Shown piece after piece: positions 25,436 to 32,365 of a stretch of DNA of 64,000 nucleotides. The first letter of the stretch is position 1. Each line of letters begins with the position of its first letter. Position numbers and translations under genes: made by a program. The notes under the pieces were generated by a model, which did not search any database, was not told the origin of the DNA, and saw nothing but the letters and a program-made list of their open reading frames with translations. Source of the DNA: Gemmatimonas aurantiaca T-27 (GTDB taxonomy: Bacteria > Gemmatimonadota > Gemmatimonadetes > Gemmatimonadales > Gemmatimonadaceae); the NCBI RefSeq assembly GCF_000010305.1, contig NC_012489.1, positions 1,736,001 through 1,800,000 on the forward strand, in the 5' to 3' direction.

Positions 25436-26899
25436 TCAGCAGCCCGGACCAGCCAAGGCTCCGGTCTTGCCGACGCGCTGCAGGCATTCGGTCTGCGGGA
25501 TCGGCTGCACACGCGCCACGAAGTGCGCGTTCACACCCGTCGTGATGTCCAGCGGAAGCTGGTTCAGACGGCCGTAGCGGCGCATATCCACCCACCGGTG
25601 TCCCTCGTACAGCAGCGAATAGCGCTTCTGCAGCAGGATTTCGGTGAGGACGTCGGCATCCGACGACGAGGCCGTGAGCGTGGTTGGCGCGAGGCCGCCC
25701 GAGTTCACACGGATGTTGTTGATCATCGTGATCGCACCCGCCTTGTCACCCGTTGCCAGCAGGATTTCGGCACGAAGCAGGATCAACTCTTCGTTCCGAA
25801 TCAGTGGAATGCTGGACGAGATGGTCGGGTACATGTTGAAACCAAGTGTCGACGGGATACCGAGTCCCTGCGGAGCAACACCCTGCGGACGGGTGCCGAT
25901 CTTAGCGAGGAAACGGTTGTCCTTGGTACCGTCGGCCTTGAGGGGCGCGTCGGCATCGATCGACATGTGGGCGTACAGGGTGGTGTTGGTCGACACGTTG
26001 AACGGATTGTTCACGTCTGGCGCCGCCGCGTACGGATGGAACACACCCACATTGTACTGCGCCGCCGTCGTGGCCGACGTGTTGATGAACGAGGCATCCA
26101 GTGCTGTGCGAGCACGGGCCCACGCTGCTGCCCCACCGCCCGACGTGGCATAGTACGCCGCCGCTCGTGCCGCGAAGGCACGGTTGAAGCGGATGTACGT
26201 GGCCGGCGTGTTGAAACCGGCGTAACCACCGTGGAAGGTGAACGGGAACGCCGTCGTGCCGGCAGCCACGAGATCCGCCTGTGCTTCGTCCAGCTTGGCC
26301 AGAATGTACTTGTACGTGGAATCACGCGAGACGAACGGCGCGATTTCCGTCGCATTCTGGTTGATCTGGAGCACAGCGCCGAGTGTGTCGCGTGTCGCGA
26401 TGACATACAACAACTCGATCCCTTCCATGGTCTTGGCAAAGCCAAGCGCGGCCCGCTTCTGGGGTTCCGTGAGCGACGAGGCGGCAACCGTGTTCTTGAA
26501 GTTGAACACGTCGCGCAGGTTGCCGTAGGGGCCCGCCCAGCTACCGATGGCAAAGCCAGCCGGATCGAGCTTGTTCTGGCCCGACAAGCCGATCAGGTAG
26601 GCCGACGTATTGCGGCCTTCTGCTGGCGTGTAGTTGTACGACTCACGTCCGAAACGACCCAGGTCGCCGATGTACGTGCCGGTGTTGCCGCGGTTCTGGC
26701 GCAGCAGGCCAGTCGCCTGCAACTGCAACGCCTGAGGATCGGCGCTGGCACCCGCCACCGTCGGGAAGTTCGGGTTGGTGATGTTGAGCGTGTCCTTGCT
26801 GCAGGCAGCCAGCGAGAGCGACGCGAGGGACAGCGCACCGATGGTGCGCGTGGTCTTCGAAGTCATCCGTGAGACGCCGGAATGGTTTGTTGTCGTCAT
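25436..26899 (-). CDS. SusD/RagB-family surface lipoprotein
   Basis: The nutrient-binding partner of a SusC-type TonB transporter. Start ATG 26899 lies 4 nt after the SusC stop and gives 487 residues. ATG 26866 is an alternative that shortens the signal peptide. Lipobox SLSLAACSKD near residue 32. The N-terminal NITNPNFP and helical TPR-like body, the RNEELILLRAEILLATGDKAGAITMINNIR segment (split run) and the C-terminal LLQKRYSLLYEGHRWVDMRRYGRLNQLP (split run) are typical SusD elements. No glycoside hydrolase lies nearby, so the substrate cannot be guessed. Confidence 0.9.
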   Translation of the reverse strand: MTTTNHSGVSRMTSKTTRTIGALSLASLSLAACSKDTLNITNPNFPTVAGASADPQALQLQATGLLRQNRGNTGTYIGDLGRFGRESYNYTPAEGRNTSAYLIGLSGQNKLDPAGFAIGSWAGPYGNLRDVFNFKNTVAASSLTEPQKRAALGFAKTMEGIELLYVIATRDTLGAVLQINQNATEIAPFVSRDSTYKYILAKLDEAQADLVAAGTTAFPFTFHGGYAGFNTPATYIRFNRAFAARAAAYYATSGGGAAAWARARTALDASFINTSATTAAQYNVGVFHPYAAAPDVNNPFNVSTNTTLYAHMSIDADAPLKADGTKDNRFLAKIGTRPQGVAPQGLGIPSTLGFNMYPTISSSIPLIRNEELILLRAEILLATGDKAGAITMINNIRVNSGGLAPTTLTASSSDADVLTEILLQKRYSLLYEGHRWVDMRRYGRLNQLPLDITTGVNAHFVARVQPIPQTECLQRVGKTGALAGPGC

Positions 26900-26903
26900 G
26901 GAA

Positions 26904-29900
26904 TCAGAACCCCAGGTCGACGCTGAAGAAGAACTGGCGGCTCGACGGGTACGGCGCGAGGTCGATGAACCGGTTGAAGTTCTGATTGCCGAAGTTGTTG
27001 AACTCCGGATCAAAGCCCCAGTAATCCGTGAACATGAACAGGTTACGGCCGCTGAGGTTCATACGCAGCGACTTGGCCTTCACCTTCTGCGCCCACGAAT
27101 CCGGCGCCTGGTAGTTCAGCGTGATTTCACGAACCTTCACGTACGAACCGTTCTGGATGTACACGCGCGTGTCGCCAGCGTTGAACGTGGCGTAACGGCA
27201 GGCACCCAGCGTCTGGTTGCCGCACAGGCGTGAGCCCGGCACATAGCTCGCATCGCCCGGATTGCCCGAGCCACGCGGCGTGATGATCTGCGTCGGCGCG
27301 CCATCGTCGTAATCACGGGCGTTGCCACCTTCATCCCACAGGTTGTTCGTCATGTTCGACACATCACCACCCGCACGCCAGTCGAGCAGCACCGACATCG
27401 TGAGGCGCTTCCACGTGAAGTCGTTGTTGAACGTGGTGGTGTGGATCGGGTTCGCGTTGCCCGTGATGGTGTCAACCGCAACGTACGCCTGCGTGGCCTG
27501 GTTCCAACGGAGCGGCGCGTTCGACCAGATCAGCGTCGAGATCGTGTTCGCCGCGATGCGGTTACGGCCGTAGGCGGCACCGAACGAGTTCGGCGCGTTG
27601 AAGGCCGGCACCGGGATGTTGTTCGTGTACTGCTTGTTCGTGTTGTAGATGATACGGCTGGTCCATTCGAAGCTGCCGCGACGCAGCGGCACGAGCGAGA
27701 GGACACCTTCCGAACCCAGCACGGACAACTGACCACCGTTGATGATCTGGTTGCCCAGACCCGACGACGGCGGCAGCGGGAACGTGAGGAGCAGGTCGGT
27801 GATCTTACGCTGGTAGCGCGTCGCTTCGACGCCGATGCGTCCACCGAGCAGCGTCGCGTCCACACCGAATTCCAGTTCGTTCATGACTTCCGGCTTGATC
27901 GCTGCGTTGCCCAGCAGCGCGGCCGATACGAGCGAGCCCTGGCCAGCCATCGTACCACCGTTGGCGTAGATCACGTCACGATCGCCATAGCGCGGACGGT
28001 TGCCCGACTGACCCCAGGCGCCACGGAACTTGACTTCATCCAGCTTGTCCGTGAACGGCTTCACGAAGCGGTACGAGCCCGAGTACTTCGGGAACAGGTA
28101 GTACTTCTCGCGGTCACCATTCGCGCTCGAACGGTCGGCACGCACGCCGACGTTCAGGGCCAGCTTTTCGTCGAGGAACAACGCCTGTTCGTTGACGTAC
28201 AGCGACTGGTCGCGGAACTCCGCGCGGTCGTCTACGATGGCCACGTCGGTCGCCGAGGCGGCCACACGCGATGCGGGCAGCAAGTTGCGGCCGCGGATGC
28301 GATACTGATCCACCTTCTGACGCTCATACGTACCGCCAACGGACGTGGTGAACGACGTGATCAGCGACGTGCCCGGCGTCCAGGTCCATACGGCGTTCAC
28401 GCCCGCGTTGGTCTGGAGGCTGGAGATGTTGTTTTGCCCCGCCGTGCCGCGGAGACCGTCGGCCGGCTCGAACTGGAGGTAGTTCGGCGAGTACACGACG
28501 CCTTCCTGCTGGAAGCGATCGACACCGGCCAGCATGGAAAGCTGCACGCTGTGGCGGGCCGTGGCCACCGCGGCGTAACCGACGCGGAGGTTGCCGGCCT
28601 GACGGAACACCGTTTCGTCACCCTGCACGGCTTCCATGACTTCGAACGGGTTGGCCGTGTTGAAACCGCCGCCGTGGAACGGCATGAGCGGCAAACGGCC
28701 GTCGGCGCCACGCTTCTGCAGGTCGATGATGGCCGGCGTGTAGCCCAATTCGTACGTCGGGCTGGTGCCCGAGTTCGCGTTGTTGCCGATACCGCGCTGC
28801 AGGAAGTTGCGCGTCACGTCCACACCCATGCTGGCCGTGAGCTTGCTGCCGATCGTCTGATCGAGGTTGATGCGGCCACCGGTACGACGCGCGCCGGTGT
28901 TGATCATGATGCCCGATTCCTGACGGTCGTTGAGCGAGGCGAAGAAGCGGGTGTTACCCGAGCCGCCCGCCGCCGACAGCAGCGTTTCCCACGACGGGTC
29001 GGTGCGGCCGTAGAGCTGCCCCTGCCAGTCGTAGTTGGTGCACTGCGGGGTGCAAGCCGCGCGAGCCGCCGCTTCACCGATCGGGCCGCCGACGAACGGC
29101 AGCACGTGGTCGAGGTCGCGGTATTCACGCTGGCCGAGCGAACGCACCATCTGCTGGGTGCCGACGCGCTGCGTCAGGTTCCAGCGCGTGGCGCCGGCCT
29201 GGCCCTTCTTGGTCGTGATCACGACCACGCCGTTGGTGGCGCGCGAGCCGTAGATGGCCGTTGCCGCCGCCGACTTCAGGACTTCGATGCTCTCGATGTC
29301 GTTGGAGTTCAGGTCGGCGAGACGATTGACGACCTGGTCCTGGCTCGAGCCGGTCGTGCCTGAAGCACGGGACACGGAGCTGGCACCCGACGAGTAGCCA
29401 GCATTCGAGATGATGACGCCGTCGACGACGTAGAGCGGATCACCCTGCGCCAGCACCGACGTGGCGCCGCGGATCTGCACCTGGGCACCACCGCCCGGCG
29501 CGCCGCTGTTTTCGAACACGCGGGCACCGGCAACCTTACCAGCCAGGTTGCTTTCGACCGAGCGGGCCGGCACGCGATTGAGTTCCGTCGCGCTGACCGA
29601 AGCCACCGCGGTGGCAGCCACACGACGATCAACCGTCGTCGCGGCACCCGTAACCGTCACACCTTCGAGCTGCAGCACGTCCTTGTCGAGCTCGAAGTTG
29701 GCCGTGGTCGCCGTCGGGGCGACTCGGACCGTGGCGCGCTTGTAGCCCAGCGTACGCGCCATGAGTGATGCTTCACCGGCCGGCACCCGGATGCGGTATT
29801 CCCCGCGTTCGTTGGTGCGCACACCGACCTGCTGGCCGACGATGCTGACAGTGACATCTGGAAGGGGTTGGCCGGTGCCAATCATTGTCACCTTACCCGT

Positions 29901-29984
29901 GATATCACGGGTCTGCGCGTCCGCACGGAACGGCAGGAGGGCGACCATGGCAGCCGCGGCCACGAACTTGAAGAACCTACCCAT
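26904..29984 (-). CDS. SusC/RagA-family TonB-dependent outer-membrane transporter
   Basis: A 1026-residue TonB-dependent porin forming the channel of a SusCD complex. Start ATG 29984 is preceded by GGAG 6-7 nt upstream and gives a signal peptide ending PFRADAQT. Order: carboxypeptidase-regulatory domain (about 24-105, DITGKVTMIGTGQPLPDVTV), plug with the SusC signature QVQIRGATSVLAQGDPLYVVDGVIISN (split run) and IESIEVLKSAAATAIYGSRATNGVVVITTKKG (split run), then a 22-strand-type barrel ending SRQFFFSVDLGF. It is complete and co-transcribed with the SusD gene. The long leader suggests control from the divergent region at 29985-30446. Confidence 0.93.
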   Translation of the reverse strand: MGRFFKFVAAAAMVALLPFRADAQTRDITGKVTMIGTGQPLPDVTVSIVGQQVGVRTNERGEYRIRVPAGEASLMARTLGYKRATVRVAPTATTANFELDKDVLQLEGVTVTGAATTVDRRVAATAVASVSATELNRVPARSVESNLAGKVAGARVFENSGAPGGGAQVQIRGATSVLAQGDPLYVVDGVIISNAGYSSGASSVSRASGTTGSSQDQVVNRLADLNSNDIESIEVLKSAAATAIYGSRATNGVVVITTKKGQAGATRWNLTQRVGTQQMVRSLGQREYRDLDHVLPFVGGPIGEAAARAACTPQCTNYDWQGQLYGRTDPSWETLLSAAGGSGNTRFFASLNDRQESGIMINTGARRTGGRINLDQTIGSKLTASMGVDVTRNFLQRGIGNNANSGTSPTYELGYTPAIIDLQKRGADGRLPLMPFHGGGFNTANPFEVMEAVQGDETVFRQAGNLRVGYAAVATARHSVQLSMLAGVDRFQQEGVVYSPNYLQFEPADGLRGTAGQNNISSLQTNAGVNAVWTWTPGTSLITSFTTSVGGTYERQKVDQYRIRGRNLLPASRVAASATDVAIVDDRAEFRDQSLYVNEQALFLDEKLALNVGVRADRSSANGDREKYYLFPKYSGSYRFVKPFTDKLDEVKFRGAWGQSGNRPRYGDRDVIYANGGTMAGQGSLVSAALLGNAAIKPEVMNELEFGVDATLLGGRIGVEATRYQRKITDLLLTFPLPPSSGLGNQIINGGQLSVLGSEGVLSLVPLRRGSFEWTSRIIYNTNKQYTNNIPVPAFNAPNSFGAAYGRNRIAANTISTLIWSNAPLRWNQATQAYVAVDTITGNANPIHTTTFNNDFTWKRLTMSVLLDWRAGGDVSNMTNNLWDEGGNARDYDDGAPTQIITPRGSGNPGDASYVPGSRLCGNQTLGACRYATFNAGDTRVYIQNGSYVKVREITLNYQAPDSWAQKVKAKSLRMNLSGRNLFMFTDYWGFDPEFNNFGNQNFNRFIDLAPYPSSRQFFFSVDLGF

Positions 29985-30112
29985 AGGGTCTCCGATGGAG
30001 GGGAGTACTGCGGCGGATCGCTCGACGTTCTGTCGCAAGCAGATGGAATGTCCATCACAGGCGATGCGGGAGGTCCCTGTAACTGAACAGTGACAGACCC
30101 GTCGAGGATGAC

Positions 30113-30121
30113 GCAAAGGTA
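30113..30121 (-). promoter_or_regulatory. TAnnTTTG-type motif upstream of susC
   Basis: Read on the minus strand the sequence is TACCTTTGC, matching the Bacteroidetes -7 consensus TAnnTTTG, about 130 nt before the SusC ATG. No clear -33 TTTG or TTG element was found at the expected distance, so this may be chance. Confidence 0.25.
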
Positions 30122-30446: not shown

Positions 30447-31934
30447 ATGACCGTCGACCGTCCCTTCCTTCGCATCCGACCCATGCCGTCCGAGAGTACC
30501 TCCTGCGTCTCATGTGCGGCCTCTGCCGCCGGCTTCGACCGTCGACAGTTTCTTGCCTCCGCGTCGGTACTCTCGCTGGGGGCGCTGGTCACCACGGCCT
30601 GTGGCGACGGGGTGATCTCCGGTCCGTCGGTCATTCCTCCATTCCCCTCCACGCCATTCACCTTCGATCCACGCCCGGTGACCGCGCTGCAGCAGGTCGG
30701 CGGGCGGGTGGTGGTTTCGTCGGGGCCGTCTTCGCCCATTCTGGTGGAGCGCCTTTCCACCACGCAGTACCGGGCGCTGTCTCTCGTCTGCCCACACAAG
30801 GGCACCATTGTCGACGTCCGATCTGCCGAGTTCGTGTGCCCCAACCACGGCGCCCGTTTTGCGCTGGATGGGGAATGGACCGGTGGACAGGAAACCGCCA
30901 GCCTGGCTCCCGTTGCCGTCCGCACGAATGCCGATGGGACGCTCACTATAGGTGGCGTGCCCACCCCCCCGGCGCTGGCGCTCTCCTCCTCCTCGGCGGT
31001 CTTTGTCACCTCGATCAGTGGTGGCACGATGGCGCCTCAAACGATCGCGGTCCGCAATGACGGCGGCGGCTCGGTCAGCGGCCTGCAGGTGTCGCTGGCG
31101 TATGCACCCAACCAGCGCAGCGGGTGGCTCAATGTGGCGATCGACCAGGCCTCGACACCGGCCACGCTCACCCTGACCGCCGCGCGTGGCACCATCCCGG
31201 CCGGCACCTACTCCGCCACAGTCACGGTATCGGCGCCCAATGTCTCGACCGGCGCCCAAACGGTTGCGGTCACGATGCTGGTGCAGGACCCGTCTTCGCC
31301 CGCGTCGCTGCTCCTCTCCGCCAGCGCCCTCTCCTTCACCGTGGCCCAGGGCACCACACCCGCCGCGCAGACGGTGGAATGCAACAACGGCGGTGGCGGT
31401 TCGGTCCTCGGTATCACCACATCGGTGAACTACGCCCCGGGAGCCATTGGCTGGCTCACGACGTCGTTGAGTTCCACCACGGCGCCCGCCACGCTCACAC
31501 TTCGCCCCATCATCACGGGGCTGGCCGTTGGCACGTATACCGCCACGGTCATTGTCGCGGCGTCCGGGCTGACCAACCGCACCATCACCGTCACGCTCAC
31601 CGTGAACCCGCCCGGCCTGCAGGTGACCATCGCGGCGTGGCCGGCGCTGGCCAATGTCGGTGGGGTGGCGGGCAGTGTCGGCAACGTCGGCGGTGGACCG
31701 GTGGCCATTGTCCGGACCAGCGCCAACAGCTTCTCGGCTTTCTCCATGGTCTGCCCACATGCCGGCACCACGATCCTGGTGGTGAACGGCGCGAGCTTCC
31801 GCTGCCCGAATCACGGCGCGCTGTTTGACCGCGATGGGAACAACCTGCCCGACGGCTCGCAGCTCACGGATGATCTCAAGCGCTACACCGTCATCTATAC
31901 GCCGGGGGCGGCGACGTTGGTGGTGACACTGTAG
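30447..31934 (+). CDS. Tat-type lipoprotein with two Rieske [2Fe-2S] domains and two Ig-like domains
   Basis: A 495-residue protein with GGAG 8 nt before ATG. The N-terminus has a twin-arginine motif FDRRQFLASAS (Arg32-Arg33), then a hydrophobic stretch and lipobox TTAC52. A first Rieske domain (about 80-170) has Cys115/His117 (CPHKGT) and Cys131/His134 (CPNHGARF). Two tandem Ig-like repeats, BACON-like, follow (about 174-280 and 284-388), each with a GWLNV or GWLTT and ATLTL pattern. A second Rieske domain (about 390-495) has Cys436/His438 (CPHAGT) and Cys453/His456 (CPNHGALF). Both clusters keep all four ligands, and folding with Fe-S before export explains the Tat signal. The redox partner is unknown. 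It is divergent from SusC. Confidence 0.9.
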   Translation: MTVDRPFLRIRPMPSESTSCVSCAASAAGFDRRQFLASASVLSLGALVTTACGDGVISGPSVIPPFPSTPFTFDPRPVTALQQVGGRVVVSSGPSSPILVERLSTTQYRALSLVCPHKGTIVDVRSAEFVCPNHGARFALDGEWTGGQETASLAPVAVRTNADGTLTIGGVPTPPALALSSSSAVFVTSISGGTMAPQTIAVRNDGGGSVSGLQVSLAYAPNQRSGWLNVAIDQASTPATLTLTAARGTIPAGTYSATVTVSAPNVSTGAQTVAVTMLVQDPSSPASLLLSASALSFTVAQGTTPAAQTVECNNGGGGSVLGITTSVNYAPGAIGWLTTSLSSTTAPATLTLRPIITGLAVGTYTATVIVAASGLTNRTITVTLTVNPPGLQVTIAAWPALANVGGVAGSVGNVGGGPVAIVRTSANSFSAFSMVCPHAGTTILVVNGASFRCPNHGALFDRDGNNLPDGSQLTDDLKRYTVIYTPGAATLVVTL

Positions 31935-32017: not shown

Positions 32018-32365
32018 ATGCCGACCTACGAGTTCCGTTGTCCGGACGGGACGATCATCGAGCGCATTTTCAAGATCTCCGAGGTCCCCGAAACGATTCC
32101 GTCGCCCAACGGCGATGGGGTGGCCACGCGGATCATTTCCGGTGGCGCCGGTCTCCTGTTCAAGGGGTCGGGGTTCTACATCACCGACTACGGCAAGGAC
32201 GGCAAGAAGGACCAGCGTCCTGCCGGTGGCGATTCGAGTGCACCGAAGAGTGACTCGGCCCCGTCGGGCGGGAGTGCGTCAGGTGCATCGTCCGGTGGAT
32301 CATCGGGTGGCGCATCCGGCGGCACATCGGGGAGCTCCTCGTCCTCCAGCAGCAAGTCCGAGTGA
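32018..32365 (+). CDS. FmdB-family protein lacking the zinc-ribbon cysteines
   Basis: A 115-residue protein. MPTYEFRC at the start and the block IISGGAGLLFKGSGFYITDYG (about 49-68, cited in part) are the hallmarks of the FmdB/CxxC_CxxC_SSSS regulatory family. In that family, CxxCG pairs near residues 8-11 and 30-35 bind zinc. Here only Cys8 remains (FRCPDGTIIERIF) and the second pair is replaced by SPNGDG. The C-terminal third (about 75-115) is a low-complexity Gly/Ser tail. It is first in the long argS-purM-rib-pts run and its TGA overlaps the argS GTG. Its role is unknown. Confidence 0.8.
   Translation: MPTYEFRCPDGTIIERIFKISEVPETIPSPNGDGVATRIISGGAGLLFKGSGFYITDYGKDGKKDQRPAGGDSSAPKSDSAPSGGSASGASSGGSSGGASGGTSGSSSSSSSKSE

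Follow-up and report, generated by a model that had tools for sequence, protein, structure and literature searches.

Known Rieske proteins typically carry a single cluster. In the cytochrome b6f complex the Rieske subunit PetC belongs to Pfam family PF00355, binds its cluster through CxH...CxxH ligands and is held by a membrane helix. Respiratory Rieske clusters combine a disulphide with a Ser/Tyr pair. A second extracytoplasmic example is AioB (TIGR02694), which is exported by the Tat system, contains one cluster and is tightly bound to a molybdoenzyme partner. Rieske-type ferredoxins such as CarAc (1vck) are free single-electron carriers without a disulphide, and these are cytoplasmic proteins.

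We identified a gene in Gemmatimonas aurantiaca T-27 whose product contains two Rieske domains in one chain, separated by two Ig-like domains. The gene lies within the 64,000-nucleotide stretch of the chromosome that was analyzed (hereafter the window; the host genome is one contig of 4,636,964 bases). The protein resembles the b6f Rieske subunit in its ligand motifs and in the fold of its N-terminal domain. However, it differs in having two domains per chain, a predicted lipid anchor in place of the membrane helix, no disulphide, and Ala and Phe at the Ser/Tyr positions. AioB is among the nearest solved relatives after the b6f Rieske protein, but has no Ig stalk. CarAc shares the missing disulphide with the double-Rieske protein, although the two are only distantly related (profile E 1.2e-5).

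Within the limited coverage of both searches, sequence comparison with the PDB returned single-Rieske chains only, and the literature, with few subscription journals included, yielded no report of a chain with two Rieske domains. The Rieske-Ig-Ig-Rieske arrangement was not found described in either source.

Domain layout and conservation within Gemmatimonas

The reading frame is as described in the initial annotation, with a probable start at Met13, where the N-termini of homologues begin (Table 1). The N-terminus has the sequence features of a Tat lipoprotein: the RRQFL motif, a hydrophobic stretch, and the lipobox LVTTAC with C52. The Tat motif and C52 are kept among relatives, and the single exception in the arginine pair is a truncated contig. 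PF00355 matches the protein in two stretches (61 bits in total, E 1e-16), and when the copies were scored separately in the genome both exceeded the curated cut-off of 20.3 bits, the N-terminal domain with 31.0 bits and the C-terminal domain with 36.4 bits. No other Pfam domain scored above its cut-off in the 495-residue protein. The eight ligands form two CxH...CxxH sets, all invariant in the 20 aligned sequences, and variation in the N-terminal motif is limited to the Gly after the last His. The initial annotation had counted four full ligand sets, which is incorrect, but its central claim of two complete Rieske centres in one chain is borne out, and its concern that only one domain would score as Rieske is answered by the separate scores. 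Loss of the N-terminal motif in half of the family was also considered and is excluded by the alignment, in which the ligands are kept.

Table 1. Positions of the double-Rieske gene, its sequence features and adjacent genes within the window
Feature	Position	Strand	Basis or remark
Double-Rieske lipoprotein gene	30447..31934	+	495 aa, probable start Met13 (30483); Pfam and homologues
CxxC (C20, C23), Tat-signal n-region	30504..30515	+	Family conservation (alignment)
Twin-arginine motif RRQFL (R32R33QFL)	30540..30554	+	Sequence and homologues
Lipobox cysteine C52	30600..30602	+	Present in 20/20 aligned sequences
N-terminal Rieske domain, residues 71-171	30657..30959	+	Pfam PF00355, structure match
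N-terminal cluster ligands C115, H117, C131, H134	30789..30848	+	Invariant 20/20
Ig-like domain 1, residues 175-282	30969..31292	+	AlphaFold2 model, structure matches
Ig-like domain 2, residues 285-388	31299..31610	+	AlphaFold2 model, structure matches
C-terminal Rieske domain, residues 391-494	31617..31928	+	Pfam PF00355; best-conserved segment
C-terminal cluster ligands C436, H438, C453, H456	31752..31814	+	Invariant 20/20
FmdB-type zinc-ribbon gene, heading the syntenic block that continues with argS, pfkB, purM and rib	32018..32365	+	Context
susD-susC pair, divergent	25436..30116	-	Context; adjacency not conserved

The AlphaFold2 model has a mean pLDDT of 75, and the Ig regions mostly range from 76 to 94. 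Its N-terminal domain matches the b6f Rieske protein (2zt9_D; Z 9.5, rmsd 2.8, 96 residues), while the matches listed for the whole model are mostly to Ig domains and do not include the C-terminal Rieske domain by itself. The two sandwiches between the Rieske domains match many Ig-type structures with Z of 10-11.7 over approximately 100 residues. The region had been annotated as two BACON-like repeats. Both Ig-like domains are supported by the model and the structure matches, but the BACON assignment is not confirmed, as the best BACON_2 score of 14.8 bits falls below the Pfam cut-off of 25. Matches of MS2 coat protein to the Ig profile (E 2e-4) were judged to be chance similarity.

Full-length matches were found by protein search in 20 of 395 genomes of the phylum, including the host, and all belong to one genus. 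In a further member (G218) the layout is retained but the Ig repeats number six, and the N-terminal ligands are intact; this brings the architecture to 21 of 24 Gemmatimonas genomes. Because it recurs in 20 genomes other than the host, the joining of two genes by an assembly error, which the initial annotation had raised, is excluded. Two of the remaining genomes (G302, G372) are incomplete assemblies in which the gene was not seen. In the third (G078) the syntenic place (L064 7642-8100, minus strand) holds what is left of a decayed copy, with stop codons and CPNQ for CPNH. The gene is thus not essential everywhere, given the decay in this genome and its absence from the two incomplete ones. 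A single short-pattern scan of contigs that was not limited to the phylum matched Gemmatimonadota and one MAG, and the form may also occur in other phyla.

Among the 20 aligned sequences mean pairwise identity is 0.64 for the N-terminal Rieske domain, 0.57 and 0.56 for the Ig domains, and 0.74 for the C-terminal Rieske domain. The better conservation of the Rieske domains compared with the Ig domains, together with the invariant ligands, speaks for selection on both clusters. The number of Ig domains ranges from two to six across the family and the clusters at both ends are retained, which fits a role of the Ig domains as a stalk.

The genes downstream (fmdB, argS, pfkB, purM and rib) are in fixed order in all examined genus members with enough flanking sequence. 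The upstream side is variable: a SusC gene is found there in some relatives and is absent from others, often with intervening genes. SusC-like receptors occur at about 16 places in the host genome, so the SusCD neighbor is uninformative on function. The proposed link to SusCD is therefore dropped, since the double architecture is often found without an adjacent susC. A scan for promoters and terminators was negative, and a plasmid search gave no match.

Cluster environment and origin of the two domains

In all N- and C-terminal domains the disulphide cysteines are missing, with Thr/Ser and Asn in their place, and in all 39 domains of the family Ala and Phe replace the hydrogen-bonding Ser/Tyr pair. 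Ala and Phe occupy these tuning positions in all 69 Gemmatimonadota Rieske domains collected. In the yeast Rieske protein, removal of the Ser and the Tyr lowers the potential by ~130 and 65 mV, respectively (summarised in PMC12954380). From the Ala and Phe at the Ser/Tyr positions, along with the lack of a disulphide, both clusters are predicted to have a potential below that of the respiratory type. The single Rieske lipoproteins at L080, L085, L093 and L096 retain the disulphide cysteines (CPHxGC...CPCH), and those at L080 and L085 have Ala and Phe at the tuning positions despite these cysteines. A catalytic Rieske oxygenase is ruled out by Pfam and profile scans, in which the mononuclear-iron catalytic domain was absent.

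The N- and C-terminal Rieske domains of one protein are 31-44% identical. In a domain tree built from ~95 columns, and accordingly of limited resolution, all C-terminal domains form one clade (support 100/99) that groups with the domains of single and tandem Rieske lipoproteins, and the branch parting these from the N-terminal domains has support of 96/99. Duplication with later insertion or fusion of Ig domains had been suggested from the similarity of the two halves, but the separate clades and the degree of identity do not support a recent event. The two domains may instead stem from an ancient duplication or from related genes that became fused.

Single and tandem relatives and the four-histidine operon

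A Rieske-domain profile matches 136 of 390 genomes, and most of the matches are single Tat lipoproteins of ~150-200 residues. In addition, approximately nine lipoproteins carry two Rieske domains in tandem and no Ig domain (two in G056; G062, G082, G120, G263, G283, G315 and G118). The assertion that known Rieske proteins carry one cluster per chain thus needs to be qualified for Gemmatimonadota. We found no literature on these single and tandem lipoproteins. They share with the double-Rieske protein the domain family, the paired cysteines of the Tat signal, the lipobox and the Ala/Phe positions. However, they have either one cluster or two joined by a short linker, and they differ in genomic context.

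The typical operon of the single and tandem relatives encodes a second, Tat-exported Rieske protein, a DUF2214-like membrane protein with two invariant His, and a four-helix protein distantly similar to DUF4079 that has four invariant His, one per predicted helix. Matches to the four-helix model include, among others, designed diheme bundles, the cytochrome b of Fdh-N and cytochrome b6, with scores that lie within the chance range of helical bundles (Z of 10.8 for cytochrome b6). The four-helix protein is a candidate diheme b-like membrane protein. Its gene lies within 4 kb of 77 of the 100 listed places with single or tandem Rieske lipoproteins and beside none of the 21 Ig-spaced genes. By genome, the tetra-His family is present in 103 of 136 with a Rieske lipoprotein versus 17 of 254 without (Fisher 3.5e-46, uncorrected for kinship).

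The host genome retains the operon without any single Rieske lipoprotein. There (L006, G000:C1:2422760-2425939) the genes encode the four-His four-helix protein, the DUF2214-like protein and the Tat Rieske protein, along with a peptidase of the M20/M28 type. Operons of this type are widespread in the phylum and may represent a new membrane redox module. Five genomes have the Ig-spaced protein as the sole listed member of its lipoprotein family.

A cysteine pair precedes the twin arginines in the n-region of the Tat signals. The spacing is CxxC in 54 of 77 cases, and many others are similar, e.g. Cx3C. Such a pair was recorded at the double-Rieske gene and at L006, L036, L044, L065 and L069-L087, among other loci; it occurs both in the Rieske lipoproteins and in the Tat Rieske proteins that accompany them, and is absent in QcrA. 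Reading the frames of the host genome by eye, an in-frame CxxC before RRxFL was found at the double-Rieske gene and L006 only. This pair, which would be lost upon export of the lipoprotein, may serve in cluster loading or proofreading.

Another Rieske gene in the host genome encodes a NifU-Rieske fusion beside an NHL-repeat-like protein (L002 1447-2577, minus strand; G000:C1 ~467.8-468.9 kb). It is possibly a hucE-type gene, which has been reported with group 2a hydrogenase (PMC7784904).

Ig arrays are also found with a different kind of head. In G120 and G118 the operon runs on into an Ig array of the same type with a CX4CH-type head and a distal Met, and similar arrays in G184 and G218 end in CxxCH. 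The arrays, with haem-type heads and a distal Met, were located at L126 1256-3619 (-), L127 929-4465 (-), L128 1017-4721 (+) and L067 191-2872 (+); tandem-Rieske genes lie immediately upstream of the first two. Like the double-Rieske protein they have Ig repeats in a lipoprotein-like chain whose far end bears a redox head, but the head is haem-type rather than Rieske. A cytochrome c nature of these heads is suggested by the motif, and the two heads scanned gave no Pfam cytochrome match. The strongest argument for reading the Ig domains as a stalk is that the combination of anchor, Ig stalk and redox head recurs with heads of two different kinds.

A possible long-reach electron carrier

Based on the two Rieske centres, the Tat lipoprotein signal and the conservation within the genus, the simplest reading is that the protein is a lipid-anchored extracytoplasmic electron carrier, each chain of which would hold two [2Fe-2S] Rieske clusters, with Ig domains as a stalk; to this reading we assign a probability of approximately 0.62. 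This agrees with the carrier function proposed in the initial annotation, and the electron-transfer role is itself deduced from sequence. Both domains would be loaded with clusters in the cytoplasm, and the motif suggests that the folded protein would then be exported by Tat. Lipidation at C52 would leave the N-terminal cluster close to the membrane, and the two Ig-like domains would act as a rod placing the C-terminal cluster further outward, so that the protein would offer two docking sites for putative partners. The protein would most likely draw electrons close to its anchor, from a donor in the membrane or the periplasm, and deliver them to a partner lying further outward. A candidate for this donor is the diheme-b-like and Tat-Rieske module that accompanies the single and tandem relatives. 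Passage of electrons between the clusters depends on the distance between them, and a rigid stalk would argue against direct exchange. The genomic context speaks against a carrier, as the Ig-spaced genes are flanked by housekeeping genes and the tetra-His gene is never among their neighbors.

That same lack of an adjacent redox partner gene would suit a sensor or adhesin located at the surface or in the periplasm, in which the clusters are redox sensors and the Ig part, as stalk or head, responds to redox state or a metal. Ig arrays are common in adhesins and vary in number here. However, profile scans for domains of signalling or adhesion were negative, haem-b-like and Rieske proteins are encoded in the operons of the relatives, and it is the Rieske rather than the Ig parts that are better conserved; we regard this explanation as unlikely. 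It is quite improbable that the protein serves a periplasmic oxidoreductase as small subunit, as AioB does arsenite oxidase, with the large subunit encoded elsewhere. While TIGR02694 and AioB chains are matched by the C-terminal domain, and AioB is also a Tat substrate, the score of 32.3 bits is far below the equivalog cut-off of 95.65, the conserved neighborhood has no large-subunit gene, and the single cluster of AioB comes without Ig domains.

Whether both clusters work can be questioned from the N-terminal domain, which is on a longer branch and is less conserved than the C-terminal domain, as might be expected of a relic that leaves the C-terminal cluster to act alone. Its four ligands and Ala/Phe positions are nevertheless invariant in 20 species, and the ligands are intact even in the six-Ig form, making this very unlikely. 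Least probable is that the protein replaces or feeds the Rieske subunit of a bc-type complex. Profile matches to the b6f Rieske protein point in this direction, but equivalog scores are low (22.1 bits for TIGR01416, cut-off 97.4; 36.6 bits for PetC, cut-off 250), the chain has no membrane helix after lipidation and neither the disulphide nor the Ser or Tyr, and cytochrome b genes are not adjacent. In addition, the genome has a normal QcrA (L004) with CPHLGC/CPCH.

The double-Rieske Ig-stalked lipoprotein is therefore best regarded as probably a long-reach electron carrier. More tentatively, and with the odds against it, it could be the stalked end piece in Gemmatimonas of a so far undescribed membrane electron-transfer module of the Gemmatimonadota. 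Such a module would comprise the four-His protein with two haem b, the two-His DUF2214-like protein and two Rieske proteins, one exported by Tat and the other lipid-anchored. Ig stalks with Rieske or haem heads would extend the module outward to reach acceptors well beyond the inner membrane.

Gemmatimonadota are abundant soil bacteria whose biochemistry has been little characterised. If the clusters are real and redox-active, one chain would hold two stalk-separated Rieske centres, a geometry absent from the PDB sequences and papers searched. The single-Rieske operon, with its putative diheme b protein, may encode a new quinol-linked complex. If its clusters are indeed present and redox-active, the double-Rieske protein would provide a concrete handle on periplasmic electron movement in this phylum.
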